DNA of 64,000 nt from Nocardiopsis potens DSM 45234 (GTDB taxonomy: Bacteria; Actinomycetota; Actinomycetes; Streptosporangiales; Streptosporangiaceae): NCBI RefSeq assembly GCF_000341105.1, contig NZ_ANBB01000068.1, forward strand, positions 1 through 64,000. Reading direction: 5' to 3'. A program made the translations under genes and the position numbers. The notes beneath the pieces were generated by a model. That model was not told where the DNA came from. It did not search any database and saw only the letters and a program-made list of their open reading frames with translations. Below are positions 27,454 to 37,284 of the stretch, piece after piece. The stretch's first letter is position 1; each line of letters opens with the position of its first letter.

Positions 27454-30420
27454 GTGACCGACGCGTTGCGGCCGCTGGACGGGGCGCACTGGCCCGGAGG
27501 GCTCCGGCCCTACCAGCGCACGGCGGTGCGGCGCGTCGCCGAGCGCTGGGACGCCGGGCGGCGCCGCACCTGGGTGGTGCTGCCGCCCGGCGCGGGCAAG
27601 ACCCTGGTCGGCCTGGAGGCCGCGCGCGAGCTGGGCCGGCGCACCGTGGTGTTCGCACCCAACACCGCGATCCAGGGCCAGTGGACCGCGCACTGGCGCG
27701 CCTTCGAACGGCCCGACGGGTGCACCGCCGGGACCCGGCGCGACCTGCGCGACCCCGTCACCGTGCTCACCTACCAGTCACTGGCGGTGTTCGACCCCGA
27801 CGCCGAGACCGACGAGGACGGCCGCCCCCGCGCCTCGCCCCGGGAGCGGCTGCACGGCAACGGCGCCGCCCTGGTCGCGGCGCTGCACCGGGCGGGCCCG
27901 ATCACGGTGCTGCTGGACGAGTGCCACCACCTTCTCCAGGTGTGGGGCCGCCTCCTCGACGAGGTGCTGGCGGAGCTGGACGACGCCTACGTGATCGGGC
28001 TGACCGGCACCCCCGCGGCGAGCCTCACCGCCGCCGAGGCCCGGCTGGTGGACCGCCTGTTCGGCCCGCCGGTGGTCGGCGCCTCCATCCCGGCGCTGGT
28101 CCGCGACGGCCACCTCGCCCCGTTCGCCGAACTCGCCTACCTCACCGCGCCGACCCGGCTGGAGCGGGACCACCTCGCCGAGCAGGGCACCCGGTTCGCC
28201 GAGATGTGCACCGACCTGCTCGCCCCCGGGTTCGCCGACACCGACTTCCTGCCCTGGGTGGACGCCAGGTTCGGCGAGCGGGCCACCGCGGACGGCGAAC
28301 GGCTGCCCTGGCCGCGGCTGGCCGCCCAGGAGCCCGAACTCACCGACGCGGTGCTCCGGCTGCACCACGCCGGGCTGTGCGCCCTGCCCGAAGGCGCCCG
28401 GATGCTGGAGCGCCACCGGCACCCGCCGCGTGCCGAGGACTGGACCGCGCTGATCGGCGACTACGCGCGCAACCGGCTGGACGGCGGCTCGGCGCGGGAC
28501 CGCGCCGCGCGCGAGCGCATCCGGGCCGCGCTGCCCTCGGTCGGCTACCACCTGACCGCGCGCGGCGTCCGGGCCGGCGCCTCACCGGCCGACCGGGTCC
28601 TCGCCCGCAGCGCCGCCAAGTCCTACGCCACGGTGGAGATCCTCTCCGCCGAGAGCGCCTCGATCGGCGCGAGGCTGCGCGCCCTGGTCCTGTGCGACCA
28701 CGAGCGGGCCGCGGCGCGCCCGCCCGCCCGGCTCCGCGGCGTGCTCGCCGACGACGCCGGATCGGCCCGGCTCCAGCTGGAGCTGCTGGCCGCCGACGCG
28801 CGCACCGAGGGCCTGTCCCCGATGCTGGTCACCGGCCGCACCGTGGCGGCCGCGCCGGGCACCGCCGCCGACTTCATCGCCTTCGCCGCGCGCGAGCGCC
28901 CCGACCTGGACCTGCGGGCCGTGCCGAGCGGCCCGCTCCACCAGGTCGAGGGCGGCTGGAGCTCCCGGATCTGGGTCGCCCTGGCCACCCGGTTCTTCGA
29001 GGCCGGCCGCTGCCAGGTGCTGGTGGGCACCCGCGCGCTGCTCGGCGAGGGCTGGGACGCGCGCGGCGTCAACACCGTCGTCGACCTGACCACCGCGACC
29101 ACCTCCACCGCGGTGGTGCAGAGCCGGGGCCGCGCGCTGCGGCTGGACCCGGCGTGGCCGGAGAAGACCGCGAACACCTGGACCGTGGTCTGCAGCACCG
29201 ACGGGCACCCGCGCGGCTCCGCCGACTGGAACCGCTTCGTCCGCAAGCACGAGGGGTACCTGGGCGTCGACGCCGAGGGCGAGGTGATGAGCGGCGTCGC
29301 CCACGTCGACCCGGCGTTCTCCCCGTTCGAACCGCCGCCGGAGGAGGAGCTGGACGCGGTCAACGCCCGGATGCTGGCCCGGGCCGAGCGGCGGGACGAG
29401 ACCCGCCGCCGCTGGAGCCTGGGCGCCTCCTACCGGGACGAGCTCCTGCCCACGCTGCGGGTGCGCGCCGCCCGAGGCCGGGCCGCCGCCCCGGCCGGCG
29501 ACGTTCCACCGCCGGAGCCCCCGACAGCACTGCCGGCGGCCGCGGGCGCGATTCCCGGCCCCGGCGCCCCGCCCGCCTCGAGCCTTGTGCCGCTGGCCAC
29601 GCTCCCCACTCGGGCCGCGGCCCTGCTCGTCGCCGTGCCCGCCCCGCTCGCCGCTCTGCTCGCGCCCGTGTTCGCCGTCCTACCCGCCCCGCTCGCCGCT
29701 CTGCTCGCGCTCCTGCTCGACCTGCTCGTCTGCCTCGGTGTGATCCTCACCTTCTTCGGGGCGCCGCTCCTGGTGGTCGTGGCCTTCGTGGCGCTTCCCT
29801 GGTGGGCGCTGATCGGGCTGTTCGCCCTGCCCCCGACCCTGCTCATGATCGTGGAGGGGCGCCGGGAGCAGGCCCGGGTGCGCGGCGTGGTGCGGATGCA
29901 GGAGATCGCGGCGGAGCCGGTGGACACCGCGCGCTACGCGTCCGCGGTCGCCGACGGCCTGCGCGCGGCGGGCCGCTCCGAGGCGGGCGCCGAGGCCGTC
30001 AGGATCCGGGTGGACGCAGACGGGGTGTACCGCTACACGCTGACCGGGGCCGGGGCGACGGCGGCGGAGGAGTTCGCCACCGCCCTGGACGAGGTCCTGG
30101 CACCGCTGGTGGGCACCCCCCGCTACCTCATCCCGAGGTACCTGCCGGACGCCCCGGCGAACGGTCGCGACGCCCGCGCACGGGCCCGCGCCCAGCTGGC
30201 CGGCCGCCCCCGCGCCAACCGCGCCGCCTACCACGCGGTCCCCGGCGTCTTCGGCCGGAACAAGGAGGCGGTCCGCGCCTTCACCGGGGCCTGGAACACC
30301 TGGGTCTCCGCCGGCGAGGCGGTCTACGCCGCGAGCGCTGCGGGCCGCGAGATCCTCGCCGAGCACTACGGCACCGACCCGACCGGGACCGCCACCGCCC
30401 GCCGGATGTCCTGGTCCTGA
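27454..30420 (+). CDS. Superfamily II helicase fused to a membrane region
   Basis: A 988-aa protein. Residues 1-600 form a complete SF2 helicase core: LRPYQRTAV, Walker A PPGAGKT (44-50), DECHH (155-159), LTGTPA (183-188), VGTRALLGEGWDARGVN (524-540) and QSRGRALR (556-563). A long Arg-rich insert lies between the two RecA lobes. After a Pro/Ala linker comes a hydrophobic block (about 718-800) long enough for three helices, then a soluble C-terminal domain of about 190 aa with VDADGVYRYTLTGAGATAAE. A helicase tethered to the membrane is unusual; a defence or DNA-uptake role is only conjecture. GTG 27454 lies 9 bp after the permease stop. Confidence 0.88.
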   Translation: MTDALRPLDGAHWPGGLRPYQRTAVRRVAERWDAGRRRTWVVLPPGAGKTLVGLEAARELGRRTVVFAPNTAIQGQWTAHWRAFERPDGCTAGTRRDLRDPVTVLTYQSLAVFDPDAETDEDGRPRASPRERLHGNGAALVAALHRAGPITVLLDECHHLLQVWGRLLDEVLAELDDAYVIGLTGTPAASLTAAEARLVDRLFGPPVVGASIPALVRDGHLAPFAELAYLTAPTRLERDHLAEQGTRFAEMCTDLLAPGFADTDFLPWVDARFGERATADGERLPWPRLAAQEPELTDAVLRLHHAGLCALPEGARMLERHRHPPRAEDWTALIGDYARNRLDGGSARDRAARERIRAALPSVGYHLTARGVRAGASPADRVLARSAAKSYATVEILSAESASIGARLRALVLCDHERAAARPPARLRGVLADDAGSARLQLELLAADARTEGLSPMLVTGRTVAAAPGTAADFIAFAARERPDLDLRAVPSGPLHQVEGGWSSRIWVALATRFFEAGRCQVLVGTRALLGEGWDARGVNTVVDLTTATTSTAVVQSRGRALRLDPAWPEKTANTWTVVCSTDGHPRGSADWNRFVRKHEGYLGVDAEGEVMSGVAHVDPAFSPFEPPPEEELDAVNARMLARAERRDETRRRWSLGASYRDELLPTLRVRAARGRAAAPAGDVPPPEPPTALPAAAGAIPGPGAPPASSLVPLATLPTRAAALLVAVPAPLAALLAPVFAVLPAPLAALLALLLDLLVCLGVILTFFGAPLLVVVAFVALPWWALIGLFALPPTLLMIVEGRREQARVRGVVRMQEIAAEPVDTARYASAVADGLRAAGRSEAGAEAVRIRVDADGVYRYTLTGAGATAAEEFATALDEVLAPLVGTPRYLIPRYLPDAPANGRDARARARAQLAGRPRANRAAYHAVPGVFGRNKEAVRAFTGAWNTWVSAGEAVYAASAAGREILAEHYGTDPTGTATARRMSWS
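29638..29710 (+). repeat. In-frame 28-nt direct repeat inside the helicase gene
   Basis: CCCGCCCCGCTCGCCGCTCT, continuing for 8 further identical bases, occurs at 29638 and again at 29683. The 45-nt offset keeps frame and duplicates PAPLAALLA in the membrane block, indicating a recent tandem duplication. Confidence 0.8.
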
Positions 30421-30549
30421 CCAGGGGACCGGCCGGAGAGGCCCGGCCTCGGGGAGGGGTCGGCCTGCCGGGGGCTGCCGGGTATGCGGCCGACTCGGCG
30501 CGGCGACGATGACGGCGGAGGAGGGGAGACGGCCAGGCCTCTCACCAGG

Positions 30550-30925
30550 GCACGGCGCCTCACGGGGCGGGGGTTCAAGCTGGCGGCGACGGCGGGAGGG
30601 GGACCGGCTGGTCGGTTGGGCGCGGCGCCTCGCGGGGCGGGGGTTCAGGCGGGCGGCGACGGCGGCGGTGGGGGCGGGGCGGAGGCGGTCGCCCGGGTGT
30701 CGGGCCCCACGGGGCGGGGGTTCAGGCGGGCGGCGACGGCGGCGGTGGGGACCGGCCGGTCGGTCGGTCGGGTACGGCACCCCGCAGAGCGAAGGTCAAG
30801 ACGCGCGGCGACGGCGAAGGCAGGGCCGGGGCCGGGCACCCCAGCCGCGCGCGGCACCTCGCGGAGCGAAGGTTCAAGCTCGCGGCGACGGCGGCGGGTG
30901 GGGACCGGCTGGTCGGTCGGGGGTG
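30550..30925 (-). repeat. A/B repeat cluster, five units, reverse orientation
   Basis: Five units of about 70-77 bp follow each other. Each contains a GNGNGGAGCGAAGGTTCAAG-like core followed by GCGGCGACGGCGGCGG and usually GGACCGGCYGGTCGGT. Units 1-3 are degenerate A types (cores at 30571, 30641, 30718). Unit 4 is B type (GAAGGTCAAG at 30791) and unit 5 is A type (GGTTCAAG at 30871). Read on the minus strand, the order A-B matches the cluster at 31.5 kb. Confidence 0.8.
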
Positions 30926-31066
30926 GCAGAGCAGGGAGGGGCGGCCGGGGCGGGCAGAGGGAGCGGGTTCGCCGTGTCCGCGTCGCCCGGGGCGTCGGGG
31001 CCGGCCGCCGCTGAAACCGCTACCCCTCTCTGAACTGGGCGAATACGCAGGGGGATGGTGGGGTGG

Positions 31067-31371: not shown

Positions 31372-31488
31372 CCCGCTCCTGTCCGTTCCTCGCCGCAAAC
31401 CCGGCATAGGGGATAAGGTCGCCCCCTGGCGGGAGCACGTGCCGGGCCTGGCCGGTGAACGCGGCGCCCGGCTCCCTCCCACCCTCGC

Positions 31489-31790
31489 CGCCTGCTTGAA
31501 CCTTCGCTCCGCGAGGCGCCGCGCTCGGGTGAGGCGCCCGGCCCTGCCCCTACCTTCACCGTCGCTGCCCGTCTTGACCTTCGCTCTGCGGGACGCCGCG
31601 CCTGATCGACCGGCCGGTCCCCGAGCGCTGCCTTCGCTGCCTGCTTGAACCTTCGCTCCGCGAGGTGCCGCGCTCGGCTGAGGCGCCCGGCCCTGCTCCT
31701 ACCGGCGCCGTCGCTGCCCGTCTTGACCTTCGCTCCGTGGGGCGCCGCGTTCGGGGGATGTCGGTGCCCCGGCCCTTTCTCGGCCGTTGT
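31489..31790 (+). repeat. Two tandem 149-bp A/B dimers
   Basis: A halves start at 31490 and 31639 (GCCTGCTTGAACCTTCGCTC) and B halves at 31561 and 31710 (GTCGCTGCCCGTCTTGACCT). Both pairs are exactly 149 bp apart. The two A halves differ at only about four of 65 positions. In each half CCTTCGC and GCGAGG or GCGGGR can pair around a 3-nt loop, with the pairing partly kept by G-U in the B type. Confidence 0.85.
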
Positions 31791-32893: not shown

Positions 32894-33178
32894 GCCTGGC
32901 GCCGCCGGTGCCCGGAGCCGGTGTCCGCACCTGCGGCGCGGCTCCGCCGGGAGCGGAGGGCGGTCCGCGCGCCGGGCCGCCCCGAGGGCTCCGAACCCGC
33001 CCCCCAAGGCCTTGCGAGTCCCGGGGAGAGGGGCCCCGCCCCCGGTGAACTCGCCCCGGAATGCCCCGGAACGGGGCGAAATCCCTGGTCTGTGCCATCG
33101 GAGGGGGCGCGGCGTTGCTAGCATGAGCGCGCCCCGGAGACGGGGCGGCAGACGATGGAAGAGGCGGAGGAGGCGGGC

Positions 33179-35338
33179 GTGGCACGGATGCGGCCGTTCA
33201 CCGGAATGGCGGCGGTGCTCCTGGCCGCGCTGATCGCGATGGCCGTGCCCGGCGCGCCGGCGGCCCTCGCCGACGGGCCCGGCGAGGCCCGGACCCCGGC
33301 GGCCTTCTTCGCCGAGCGGCTCGCCGAGGACCGGCCGGGGAGCGCGGTCTACGTCAGCGACGCCTTGGCGGGCGCCTACGACACCGAGGCCCTCGACGCC
33401 GAGCTGCACGGCGTGTTCGACCCGCTGGACGTCCCCTACTACGTGGTGGCCGCCCCGCCCGCGCACTCCTACGCCGAGACCGGCGCCCCGGTGTCGGCGC
33501 TGATGGACCGGGTGGGCGAGGACGGCGTCTACGTGCTGATCTCCCCCGGCACCGCCATGGTGGAGGCCGCCGCCAAGGGCGTGGACCTCCCCGCCGAGGA
33601 GGCCGCGCGGCAGCTCCTCTACAGCACCGACCTCGGCTCCGACCCGAGCATCGACGACACCGCCCGGGCCTTCGCCGAGGCGCTGACCGACCCCGCCGTC
33701 GCGGAGCGGGGCGCCGACACCGGCGCGTCCCCGCCCGACGACGGGGAGCCGTGGGACTTCCTCCCCTCGGACCTGAACCCGGGCCGGGAGACGCCCGCCG
33801 CCAATCTGGGCCTGCTCTGCGGGATGCTGGGCAGCGCCGCGGGGATCCTCCTCCTGGCCGCGGTGGTGCGCCGGTCCCTCCGGGACGGCGGGCCCTCCGC
33901 CGGGAAGAGCGGCGGGAACGGGAAGAAGGGCGGGGCGGCGCGGCGGCCGCTTCCGCTCCGGGCGGCCTGGGTGCTCGCCGGCGCGCCGCTGATGGTCCTC
34001 GCCGCGCTGGCCGCCGCGGCGCTGCCGGTCGCCGGCGGCGCGGCGCTGACCGTCGCGGTCGGGAACGACATGGACGCCTACGAGGCCGAGCAGGCCGAGC
34101 AGGCCGCCGGTTCGGGCGGGGTGCGCCGGAGCGAGGACGAGTCGTTCCGGCCCGAACCGCCCTACGTCCGGGACACCGTCCGGGTGGAGCGGATCGCCGC
34201 CGGCCTGGAGGAGAGCCGGTTCTACCTCGACCCGCTGGCCTCCTCCGCGCTGCCCCCGGAGGAGGCGGAGGAGCTGGCCGAGCGGGCCGCCGGAGCGGAC
34301 GTCCCGGTCCGGGTGGCGGTCGTCGCGATGGACGGCGCCGACGAGTCCGGCGGCGACCCGGAGATCCTGGCGCACGCCCTGCACTCGGTGCTCGGCGATG
34401 ACGCGGTCTACATCGTCGCCGCCGCCGGCCAGAGCGGCTACGGGGTGACCGCCGTCCCGTTCGGCGCCGGCCCCTCCGAGTACGACATCCGCGAGGGGAT
34501 GAGCCGGGAGCAGGAGAAGGAGGACCCCGGCACCGCGCAGGTGATCGGCGCCGCCCTCAGCACCGTCGAGCAGGGCGACCCGGACGGCTGGAAGACCTAC
34601 CCGGTCCCCGAGCCGTACCTGCCCGAACCGCCCGAGCCGGCGGACCGCCCCTACCTCGGCGACTATTTCGGCGGCGAGGGGGTGATCCCCGGGTCGGCCG
34701 TCATGGGGCCGCTGCTCGCCGCGGCGCTCGGCGCCGCCTGGTGGGCGCTGAGGCGCTTCGGGCCCCTGCTGCCGCTCCGCCTCCCGATGCCCGGCACCGC
34801 TGGGTCGGCGGCCCGGGCCGGGGCCGACCTGGGCGACCCGGACGCCCCGCGCCGCCCCGGCCGGTCCGCGCTGAACCGGATGTTCGACCGGGAGTGCGCG
34901 GAGCTCAAGCAGGCGGTCGAAGAGGCCGGCGAGGGGCACCGCCGCTACCCCGAGGCGATGTCGGCGCTGGACGCCGCGCTGCTGCTCGCCGACGAGGAGC
35001 ACGACGAACTCGACCTGGTCGGCCTGGTGGTGCTGCTGCGCACCGCCCGCGGCCGGCTGCGCGGCCTCGCCTCGGCCGACCGGCCGGTGTGCGGAATCAA
35101 CCCGCTGCACGGTCCGGCCCAGGGCAGGAGAGGGGGCCGCGACGGGCGGCTCTCGGCCTTCTGCCCCGCCTGCGCCGCTCTCACCTCGGCCGAGCGGGCC
35201 GAGCGGGTGCTGCTGGTCCGGGCCGGCGGGCGCGCGGTGCCGCACACCGAAGTGGACCGGTTCTGGACCGCGACCGGCTACGGTGCGGACGGCACCGACC
35301 TCGCCGGCGAGGTCCGGGCCCGGCTGGGGGTGCGGTGA
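33179..35338 (+). CDS. Secreted, membrane-anchored protein with C-x(n)-CxxC tail (paralogue 1)
   Basis: A 719-aa protein from GTG 33179, which has AGGAGG six bases upstream. A signal peptide (1-31, ending PAALA) is followed by an extracytoplasmic domain and helices at about 209-231 and 263-295. A second copy of the same extracytoplasmic domain (about 338-480), a third helix (about 508-525) and a cytoplasmic tail follow. The tail has Cys638, NPLHG and CPAC (662-665), a possible zinc site. The repeated domain (SSALPPEEAEELAERAAG, VPVRVAVVAM) resembles TPM-type domains, but I cannot name the family with certainty. The next gene is a shorter relative and overlaps or follows immediately. Confidence 0.8.
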   Translation: MARMRPFTGMAAVLLAALIAMAVPGAPAALADGPGEARTPAAFFAERLAEDRPGSAVYVSDALAGAYDTEALDAELHGVFDPLDVPYYVVAAPPAHSYAETGAPVSALMDRVGEDGVYVLISPGTAMVEAAAKGVDLPAEEAARQLLYSTDLGSDPSIDDTARAFAEALTDPAVAERGADTGASPPDDGEPWDFLPSDLNPGRETPAANLGLLCGMLGSAAGILLLAAVVRRSLRDGGPSAGKSGGNGKKGGAARRPLPLRAAWVLAGAPLMVLAALAAAALPVAGGAALTVAVGNDMDAYEAEQAEQAAGSGGVRRSEDESFRPEPPYVRDTVRVERIAAGLEESRFYLDPLASSALPPEEAEELAERAAGADVPVRVAVVAMDGADESGGDPEILAHALHSVLGDDAVYIVAAAGQSGYGVTAVPFGAGPSEYDIREGMSREQEKEDPGTAQVIGAALSTVEQGDPDGWKTYPVPEPYLPEPPEPADRPYLGDYFGGEGVIPGSAVMGPLLAAALGAAWWALRRFGPLLPLRLPMPGTAGSAARAGADLGDPDAPRRPGRSALNRMFDRECAELKQAVEEAGEGHRRYPEAMSALDAALLLADEEHDELDLVGLVVLLRTARGRLRGLASADRPVCGINPLHGPAQGRRGGRDGRLSAFCPACAALTSAERAERVLLVRAGGRAVPHTEVDRFWTATGYGADGTDLAGEVRARLGVR

Positions 35339-35406
35339 GCGGCGGACGGAACACGGACCGGGCGCCGGTACGGCGCGGAACGACGGGGAACACGGGAGGC
35401 GGAACG

Positions 35407-36777
35407 GTGCTCGGCAGGACTGGAAACGGCCCGGCGGCCGCGGGGCGGCGGGCCGCGCGCGCGGCGGCGCTGCTGCTCGGCGCGGCCGCACTGCTCGGTG
35501 CGGCCCCGGCGGCGGCCGACGCGGCGGCCGACACGGACGGCGGCGCGGCCCCCGGCGGCGCGGCCGAGATCGCCGAGGCGCTGCAGGAGTCGCCGGTCCT
35601 GGTGGACCCCGCCTACGCCTCGGCGCTGCCCGAGGAGAAGGCCGGCGCCATCGCGGAGAGCATCGAGGAGAGCGGCGAGCCGCTGTTCGTGGTCGTGCTG
35701 CCCGTCGCCAAGGGCGACCGGTGGCAGGGCGAGGTCGACAACCTCCTCGAAGCGGTGCACGACCGGTCCGGCCTGTCCGAGGCGCACTACATCGCCTTCG
35801 GCGGGCAGTCGGTGGAGGGCGCGGACTACCCGGCGGACAGCGCCTACGAGGAGGGCGGCGTCAACGCCTCCCTCGCGGCCCTGGCCCCCTCCTACGAGAG
35901 CGACTTCGAGGGCACCCCCGGCGAGGAGATCGAGCGCGCGGTGGAGATCGCCCTCTCCGGGGAGGCGGAGCGGCTCTACGAGGACGCCAAGGCGGGCTAC
36001 GAGGAGCGCAACGGCGGCCTGTTCGACACGTCGGGGCCGCTCACCTGGCCGATCCTGCTGGCCTGGGCGGCCGGAGCGGCGGCGCTGATCGCCGGGGCGG
36101 TGCTGCTGCTGGTCCGGGTGCGGCGCAGGGCCGCGCGGACCAGGCACGCGGTCCGGGCCGCCCCGCTCACCGCCTTCGACAACGCCGACGCGGCCCGGCT
36201 CGACGAGCTGTCCGAGCGGGTCGGCGCGGAGATCGTGGCGGTCGGCGAGCGGCTGAGCCGCGCCGAGACCGGCGGCCGCGGCGGCGCGGAGGCCACCGAG
36301 GCGCTGCAGGGCGCGCTCAACGCGCACACCGCGGCGGGCAAGGCGCACGACGCCGCCCGGGACGGCGAGGCGGACCTCGCCGACGAGGTCGGTGCGCTGG
36401 TCCTGCTCGACGTCGCCGAGTACCGGATGGCGCGGGCGGCGGCGCTGGCCGCGGGCCGGCGGCCGCCCCGGGAGCGGCGGCACTGCTACGCCAACCCGCT
36501 GCACGGCACCTCCACCGCCGACACGGAGTGGCGGCCGGTGGGCAGCCGGCGCTCCGCCACCGTGCCGCTCTGCTCCGACTGCGCCCGCGCGGTGCGCCGC
36601 AGGGCCGCACCCAAGGCGCTGGTGGTCCGGCACGGCGGCGCGGACCTCCCGTACTACACGGTTCCGGCGGAGGAGAGCGTCTGGTCGGCCACCGGCTTCG
36701 GCGCGCTCCGCTCCGACCTGGTGGACCGGATCCTCCGCGGCGACCTGCGCACCCCGGACCGGGAGCCCCGCGGCTGA
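35407..36777 (+). CDS. Secreted, membrane-anchored protein with C-x(n)-CxxC tail (paralogue 2)
   Basis: A 456-aa relative of the preceding protein with a single extracytoplasmic domain (about 54-200: LVDPAYASALPEEKAGAIAE, LFVVVLPVAKG). It has one helix (about 213-236) and a cytoplasmic tail with Cys360, NPLHG (363-367) and CSDC (389-392). Both proteins then share V(L/V)VR-x-GG ... W-(S/T)-ATG(F/Y)GA near the end. GTG 35407 has GGGAGG upstream and gives a signal peptide; an earlier GTG (35335) overlaps the previous stop as GTGA. The two genes form an operon. Confidence 0.8.
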   Translation: MLGRTGNGPAAAGRRAARAAALLLGAAALLGAAPAAADAAADTDGGAAPGGAAEIAEALQESPVLVDPAYASALPEEKAGAIAESIEESGEPLFVVVLPVAKGDRWQGEVDNLLEAVHDRSGLSEAHYIAFGGQSVEGADYPADSAYEEGGVNASLAALAPSYESDFEGTPGEEIERAVEIALSGEAERLYEDAKAGYEERNGGLFDTSGPLTWPILLAWAAGAAALIAGAVLLLVRVRRRAARTRHAVRAAPLTAFDNADAARLDELSERVGAEIVAVGERLSRAETGGRGGAEATEALQGALNAHTAAGKAHDAARDGEADLADEVGALVLLDVAEYRMARAAALAAGRRPPRERRHCYANPLHGTSTADTEWRPVGSRRSATVPLCSDCARAVRRRAAPKALVVRHGGADLPYYTVPAEESVWSATGFGALRSDLVDRILRGDLRTPDREPRG

Positions 36778-36834: not shown

Positions 36835-37284
36835 ATGAACTCCTCCTCCACCGCCGACGGCCGCGCCGACCACCCGCTGCGCGGCGAAGTCCGCGAGATC
36901 GCGACCAGGGCCGGCGCCACCAGCCTGGAGTACGCCCCCGAGCCCGACGGGCGGGCCGACACCGGCGAGGTCGTCTGGACCTGGGTGCCCTACGAGGAGA
37001 ACGACGGCCGGGGCAAGGACCGCCCGCTGCTGGTCGTCGGCCGCAAGGGCACCCGGCTGCACGCTCTGATGCTCTCCTCCCAGGAGCCCGACCCGCACGA
37101 GGAGCACGACTGGCTCGAACTCGGCGAGGGCCCCTGGGACTCCGGCGGCCGCACCTCCTACCTCTGCCTGGACCGGCTCTTCGAGATGGAGGAGGACGAC
37201 ATCCGCCGGGAGGGCGCGGTCCTCGACGGCCGCCGCTTCGCCGAGGTCGCCGCGGTCCTCCGTCGCCGCTACGGCTGGCGCTGA
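36835..37284 (+). CDS. PemK/MazF-like protein without antitoxin partner
   Basis: A 149-aa protein whose core GEVVWTWVPYEENDGRGKDR and PLLVVGRKGTRLHALMLSSQ, followed by DWLELGEGPWDSGGRTSYL and LDRLFEM, matches the actinobacterial PemK/MazF-like family. The R-P-x-L-V and T/S strand residues of the ribonuclease fold are recognisable. No small antitoxin gene lies next to it; upstream are the two membrane proteins, downstream a terminator. Whether it still cleaves RNA is doubtful, since many solo members of this subfamily are uncharacterised. Confidence 0.8.
   Translation: MNSSSTADGRADHPLRGEVREIATRAGATSLEYAPEPDGRADTGEVVWTWVPYEENDGRGKDRPLLVVGRKGTRLHALMLSSQEPDPHEEHDWLELGEGPWDSGGRTSYLCLDRLFEMEEDDIRREGAVLDGRRFAEVAAVLRRRYGWR

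Follow-up and report, generated by a model that had tools for sequence, protein, structure and literature searches.

The gene described here occupies positions 27454–30420 on the forward strand of the window, the whole stretch of 64,000 nucleotides that was analysed. It starts 9 bases after an amino acid permease gene and is followed downstream by a DUF5954 gene. An AGGG lies about 9 nt 5′ of the GTG start at 27454, and the third-codon GC of the reading frame is 0.97, in a window whose overall GC content is about 75%. An earlier, sequence-only reading had seen in this protein a complete helicase that runs through a Pro/Ala linker into about three membrane helices and then into a soluble domain of about 190 aa, which it could not assign. 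As a whole, that observation is confirmed. The features are:

27454..30420, forward strand: whole coding sequence, a single unbroken reading frame of 988 aa with a GTG start
27502..29463, forward strand: SF2 helicase core, residues 17–670 (Pfam, secondary structure of the model, VIA-align)
27583..27603, forward strand: Walker A, PPGAGKT, residues 44–50; G46, G48, K49 and T50 invariant in 40 homologues
27916..27930, forward strand: motif II, DECHH, residues 155–159; D155, E156, H158 and H159 invariant in 40 homologues
29023..29058, forward strand: motif V region, VGTRALLGEGWD, residues 524–535; contains residues invariant in 40 homologues
29119..29142, forward strand: motif VI, QSRGRALR, residues 556–563; Q556, R558, R560 and R563 invariant in 40 homologues
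29464..29595, forward strand: Pro/Ala-rich linker, residues 671–714, from the translation; in part of low pLDDT
29596..29853, forward strand: hydrophobic block, residues 715–800, from hydropathy and its low identity to the nearest relative
29620..29708, forward strand: 21-bp tandem repeat, 4.1 copies, encoding APLAALL-type repeats (TRF)
29707..29844, forward strand: presumed counterpart of a two-helix hairpin, residues 752–797, with a PW turn; from linker comparison, by eye
29896..30417, forward strand: C-terminal alpha/beta domain, residues 815–988 (about 175 aa), from alignment A1 and the predicted model

Is the helicase complete? The core divides into a first RecA domain (residues ~17–230), a helical insertion (~235–407) and a second RecA domain (~408–610). 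Pfam ResIII matches residues 17–188 (E 6.9e-18) and Helicase_C residues 515–564 (E 2.8e-5), both above the gathering score. An LTGTP motif (residues 183–187) and GEGWD are likewise intact. With both RecA domains present, carrying Walker A, a DExH box and motif VI whose key residues are invariant, the protein belongs to the SF2 helicases, and the claim of a complete helicase is borne out.

Which helicases does it most resemble? By sequence, the first RecA domain comes closest to XPB/Rad25 (NF045503; PDB 2fwr, 6p4f), at E 1.6e-12; RadD, more weakly, and restriction R subunits are the other nearest families, and the PHROG matches are DNA helicases. It is not XPB itself, since NF045503 scores 46.7 bits against an equivalog cut-off of 610 bits and covers residues 16–112 only; compared with XPB, the window protein adds the helical insertion, the hydrophobic block and a C-terminal domain of its own. 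In VIA-align the core reaches Z scores of up to 20 to XPB, RIG-I and FANCM. XPB/Rad25 is among the top structural matches, and close to it, at Z 17–19, lie RIG-I/MDA5 and Hef/FANCM, whose DExH core likewise carries helical segments inside its RecA domains or between them. Because the Z scores of XPB, RIG-I and FANCM fall within about 2 units and the mean pLDDT of the full-length model is only 65.6, the structural comparison does not decide between DNA and RNA. These scores, together with those of DEAD-box RNA helicases, which also come near XPB's, would suit a membrane-associated RNA helicase that remodels ribonucleoprotein or mRNA at the membrane; we consider this distinctly unlikely, as both the nearest sequence families and the PHROG matches act on DNA.

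What is the nature of the hydrophobic block? Non-overlapping Kyte–Doolittle peaks of 19 residues fall at residues 724–742 (2.35), 747–765 (2.89) and 772–790 (2.50), and a scan of the whole 988-residue protein found no fourth such peak outside the block. We compared 87 homologues in which both domains were measurable. A peak of at least 1.6 lies between helicase and C-terminal domain in 76, whereas the helicase core contains one anywhere in only nine; in 78 the linker has the higher peak of the two. Counted over distinct C-domain ORFs, a peak that reaches 1.6 precedes that domain in 78 of 90. Most linker peaks reach 2.0–2.9, and their position is shared by the majority of homologues, those of Bacillota included. 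Within-linker shuffles, a weaker test, returned p<0.05 for 58 of the 76 and p<0.01 for 28. Homologues without the block were the outcome that the sequence-only reading had itself set against its claim, and such homologues are the minority; the claim has largely survived.

The linker comparison showed that in many homologues the block reads as two helices and a short turn, often with PW in the turn, and that in many a basic stretch of the RRR type follows it. Basic residues at that place fit an even number of crossings. From these sequences the usual form of the block looks like a two-helix hairpin. Its presumed counterpart here, residues 752–797, has a PW turn that recurs in several homologues. 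The number of about three membrane helices proposed earlier thus holds for the window copy, which has three peaks, and fails for most relatives, which look like two.

Where, then, does the third stretch come from? Between the window protein and its nearest relative, from a sister species (L064), identity is 93% in the helicase core, 86% in the C-terminal domain and 41% in the block, the last figure counting aligned positions only and leaving 43 residues unaligned. The 21-bp tandem repeat overlaps the extra, lineage-specific hydrophobic stretch of the window copy and is missing from the relative. Since the block differs in this way, down to a repeat present only in the window copy, the third ‘helix’ looks, at the level of sequence, like a local and recent expansion. 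The possibility that the block was copied from elsewhere in the genome was rejected, as no second full copy occurs there. So long as hydrophobicity is kept, the block seems to tolerate drift in its sequence. The three hydrophobic stretches of the window copy count against reading its own topology as a plain hairpin.

A block that never enters the membrane, being instead a buried or disordered Ala/Leu-rich linker, is a reading we regard as very unlikely. GC-rich coding drift toward Ala and Leu might produce it, 11 of the 87 homologues lack a strong peak, and the AF2 fragment model runs one long helix, not a hairpin, through the block. Such drift would sit poorly with peaks of this height at one position in most homologues and in Bacillota, with a core that rarely reaches 1.6, and with the many homologues that read as two helices joined by a short turn, with basic residues following. 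We infer that the block is a putative membrane insertion, on the evidence of hydropathy and conservation.

The clear exceptions are L108, L151 and L152 (one family), L111, L095, L140 and L141, and L155, an alphaproteobacterial homologue from Tritonibacter. Since these block-less members sit at five places on the helicase tree, several losses or gains of the hairpin are implied, and membrane attachment appears not to be essential to the family. Its invariant core is the helicase plus the C-terminal domain; the hairpin, which several lineages lack, is probably a tether and not the active part.

What can be said of the C-terminal domain? Its core is modelled mostly at pLDDT 83–98, with a lower-scoring tail, and alignment A1 has invariant or nearly invariant positions at G43, G55, R88, Y89, R93, H125, V127, P128, W145 and W185. 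Pfam gave no match that recurred among members or exceeded its cut-off, and no nuclease; the PHROGs search gave no match, the PDB sequence search nothing significant, and Foldseek against PDB and BFVD no match at E ≤ 0.001. The best VIA Z score, 4.2, falls on the long helix, and the domain itself reaches at most 3.6. The earlier inability to assign this domain is thus upheld by every one of these searches. For the predicted model a fold match is absent, which does not make the fold new. Of 90 ORFs with the domain, 85 have a scored helicase ahead of it; the remaining five are short or broken, or only part of them was retrieved. In every intact gene found, the domain is fused to the helicase.

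Two characterised kinds of protein, RIG-I-like receptors and Hna, are separated from this one in the C-terminal part. The RIG-I zinc domain requires cysteines, and the C-domain alignment of 40 homologues conserves none; Pfam detects neither a CARD nor a Hef-type nuclease in the window protein. Hna is an anti-phage, single-gene helicase–nuclease, DinG/XPD-like, with a PD-(D/E)XK nuclease (PMC13381803). The two are alike in being single-gene SF2 helicases with an extra C-terminal domain (PMC13381803). The 40 C-domains share no invariant or nearly invariant lysine and have no Pfam nuclease, so, by sequence, a PD-(D/E)XK domain of the Hna kind appears to be absent. The window protein has an XPB-like core and a hydrophobic block, whereas the main text on Hna does not use the word ‘transmembrane’ (PMC13381803). 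A full-length homologue with all three parts is WP_152404286.1 of Paenibacillus, named by NCBI ‘DEAD/DEAH box helicase family protein’; that name is generic, and no NCBIfam model spans the whole architecture. The open-access full-text literature yielded no bacterial membrane-anchored helicase of this kind.

How widespread is the gene, and how is it inherited? Within the order, 65 of 297 genomes have a match to the C-terminal domain; for the class the figure is 46 of 395, and for the phylum 8 of 396. Full-length distant homologues with the hydrophobic block come from Paenibacillus and from two gut-sample scaffolds; these Bacillota members (L154, L156, L157), the gut scaffolds being so labelled because they group with Paenibacillus in the tree, retain the order helicase, hydrophobic hairpin, C-terminal domain. 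On this comparison the three-part architecture is old and conserved, recurring in many actinobacteria and some Firmicutes. The two gut scaffolds (L156, MT838455.1; L157, MT836806.1) are short, faecal and deposited as UNVERIFIED ‘Bacteriophage sp.’. One of them also carries an ORF that we take to be pyruvate formate-lyase-like, and both scaffolds may therefore be pieces of bacterial DNA under a phage label. An origin from phage or plasmid was rejected: the gene is found on 4 of 72,556 plasmid records, at 28% identity, and on no convincing phage, and IMG/VR holds no confirmed phage carrier. The homologue on the Rhodovulum plasmid pRSMBA (L158:7407-10297) is divided between two annotated genes and appears to be broken.

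In the helicase tree, homologues cluster by bacterial family; its 14 labels require 13 changes, the minimum possible. Remnants or broken copies occur in genomes G001, G005, G014, G316 and G196. Such copies lie at L084:9397-9705, L086:9846-10244, L085:9413-9652 and L098:7622-10481; the remnants in G001 and G005 share flanking genes with the intact copies of G002 and G003. As the gene is missing from most related genomes and has decayed or broken in several, it is, by this genomic measure, dispensable. Mostly vertical inheritance with frequent loss gives it the look of an accessory rather than a mobile gene.

Do the neighbouring genes point to a function? Flanking genes vary with genus, and the nearest relative lacks the upstream permease at its locus. 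A conserved operon partner was rejected, since no neighbour cluster is common to more than 9 of about 43 loci. In the 109 flanking genes scanned, the most frequent Pfam families belong to ordinary metabolism and regulation. A ComFA-like motor that drives DNA uptake or conjugative transfer is the least probable reading that we considered and is highly doubtful. ComFA is a membrane-associated helicase, and a membrane location would fit; with no conserved neighbour at all, the recurrent neighbours include neither com nor transfer genes, nor do the 25 commonest flanking Pfam families.

Defence against phages or plasmids is a stronger candidate, though still on the unlikely side. Here the helicase would sense foreign nucleic acid, and the hairpin and C-terminal domain would form an effector or place the sensor at the point of DNA entry. 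The patchy distribution and gene decay are consistent with this, as are the structural likeness to RIG-I/MDA5, on a par with XPB, and the frequency of SF2 helicases in defence, Hna being one (PMC13381803). PADLOC gives the helicase weak, partial matches only (PbeA, E 1e-7, helicase region only); no model covers the protein and the neighbourhood is not one of defence, so it is not assigned to any described anti-phage system. The gene is rare on plasmids, its two phage-labelled scaffolds are UNVERIFIED, its tree follows families instead of showing frequent transfer, and several lineages lack the hairpin. A defence island was rejected: at E ≤ 1e-10 the raw count over the 109 flanking genes is one hit each to three PADLOC models, none of them convincing. 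The survey of neighbourhoods for defence genes, suggested earlier, has thus produced little. The envelope role then envisaged (DNA uptake, segregation or phage defence) finds no support, given the want of a conserved neighbour, the scarce defence hits, the rarity on mobile elements and the family-following tree.

What does the protein do? Bacterial helicases are mostly soluble, or are brought to the membrane by partners. From its sequence, this is a single-gene chromosomal protein with an intact ATPase core of the XPB/Hef/RIG-I class. We tentatively favour an SF2 translocase, tethered to the membrane, that is inherited vertically and can be dispensed with, and that would help to maintain nucleic acid at the membrane's inner face. 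The hairpin would dip into the cytoplasmic membrane and back, as hydropathy suggests, leaving helicase and C-terminal domain both on the cytoplasmic side. Driven by ATP, the motor would travel along duplex nucleic acid near the membrane, probably DNA, or remodel it, while the C-terminal domain might recognise a substrate or partner. If the hairpin merely concentrates the enzyme at the membrane, this would explain both the free drift of its sequence and the lineages that lack it. The role would then be one of accessory genome maintenance, useful but dispensable. An unlikely alternative is a membrane-tethered sensor: at the membrane's inner face the helicase would recognise foreign or abnormal nucleic acid, and the C-terminal domain and hairpin would trigger a response, all within one protein. 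If true, this would be a switch for bacterial immunity or stress of a hitherto undescribed kind. A helicase with an apparent membrane hairpin of its own and an unmatched C-terminal domain, in Actinomycetota and Bacillota, marks an uncharacterised family, and its natural hairpin-less homologues offer a ready comparison for what tethering adds.

Other features lie downstream of the gene. A cluster of GC-rich repeats of about 75 bp occupies window positions 30511–30928, with inverted copies at 31466–31758. Sites of this repeat number 141 in the window genome, 134 in its nearest relative (G004) and only 12–20 in the four other genomes of the genus; it seems to be a high-copy, dispersed repeat that has expanded in one sub-lineage. 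Two long neighbouring ORFs, at 33155–35338 and 34741–36777, have no Pfam match and show hydrophobic stretches by eye. A small ORF at 36835–37284 gives a marginal PemK/MazF-like toxin match, 25.3 bits against a cut-off of 23.1.
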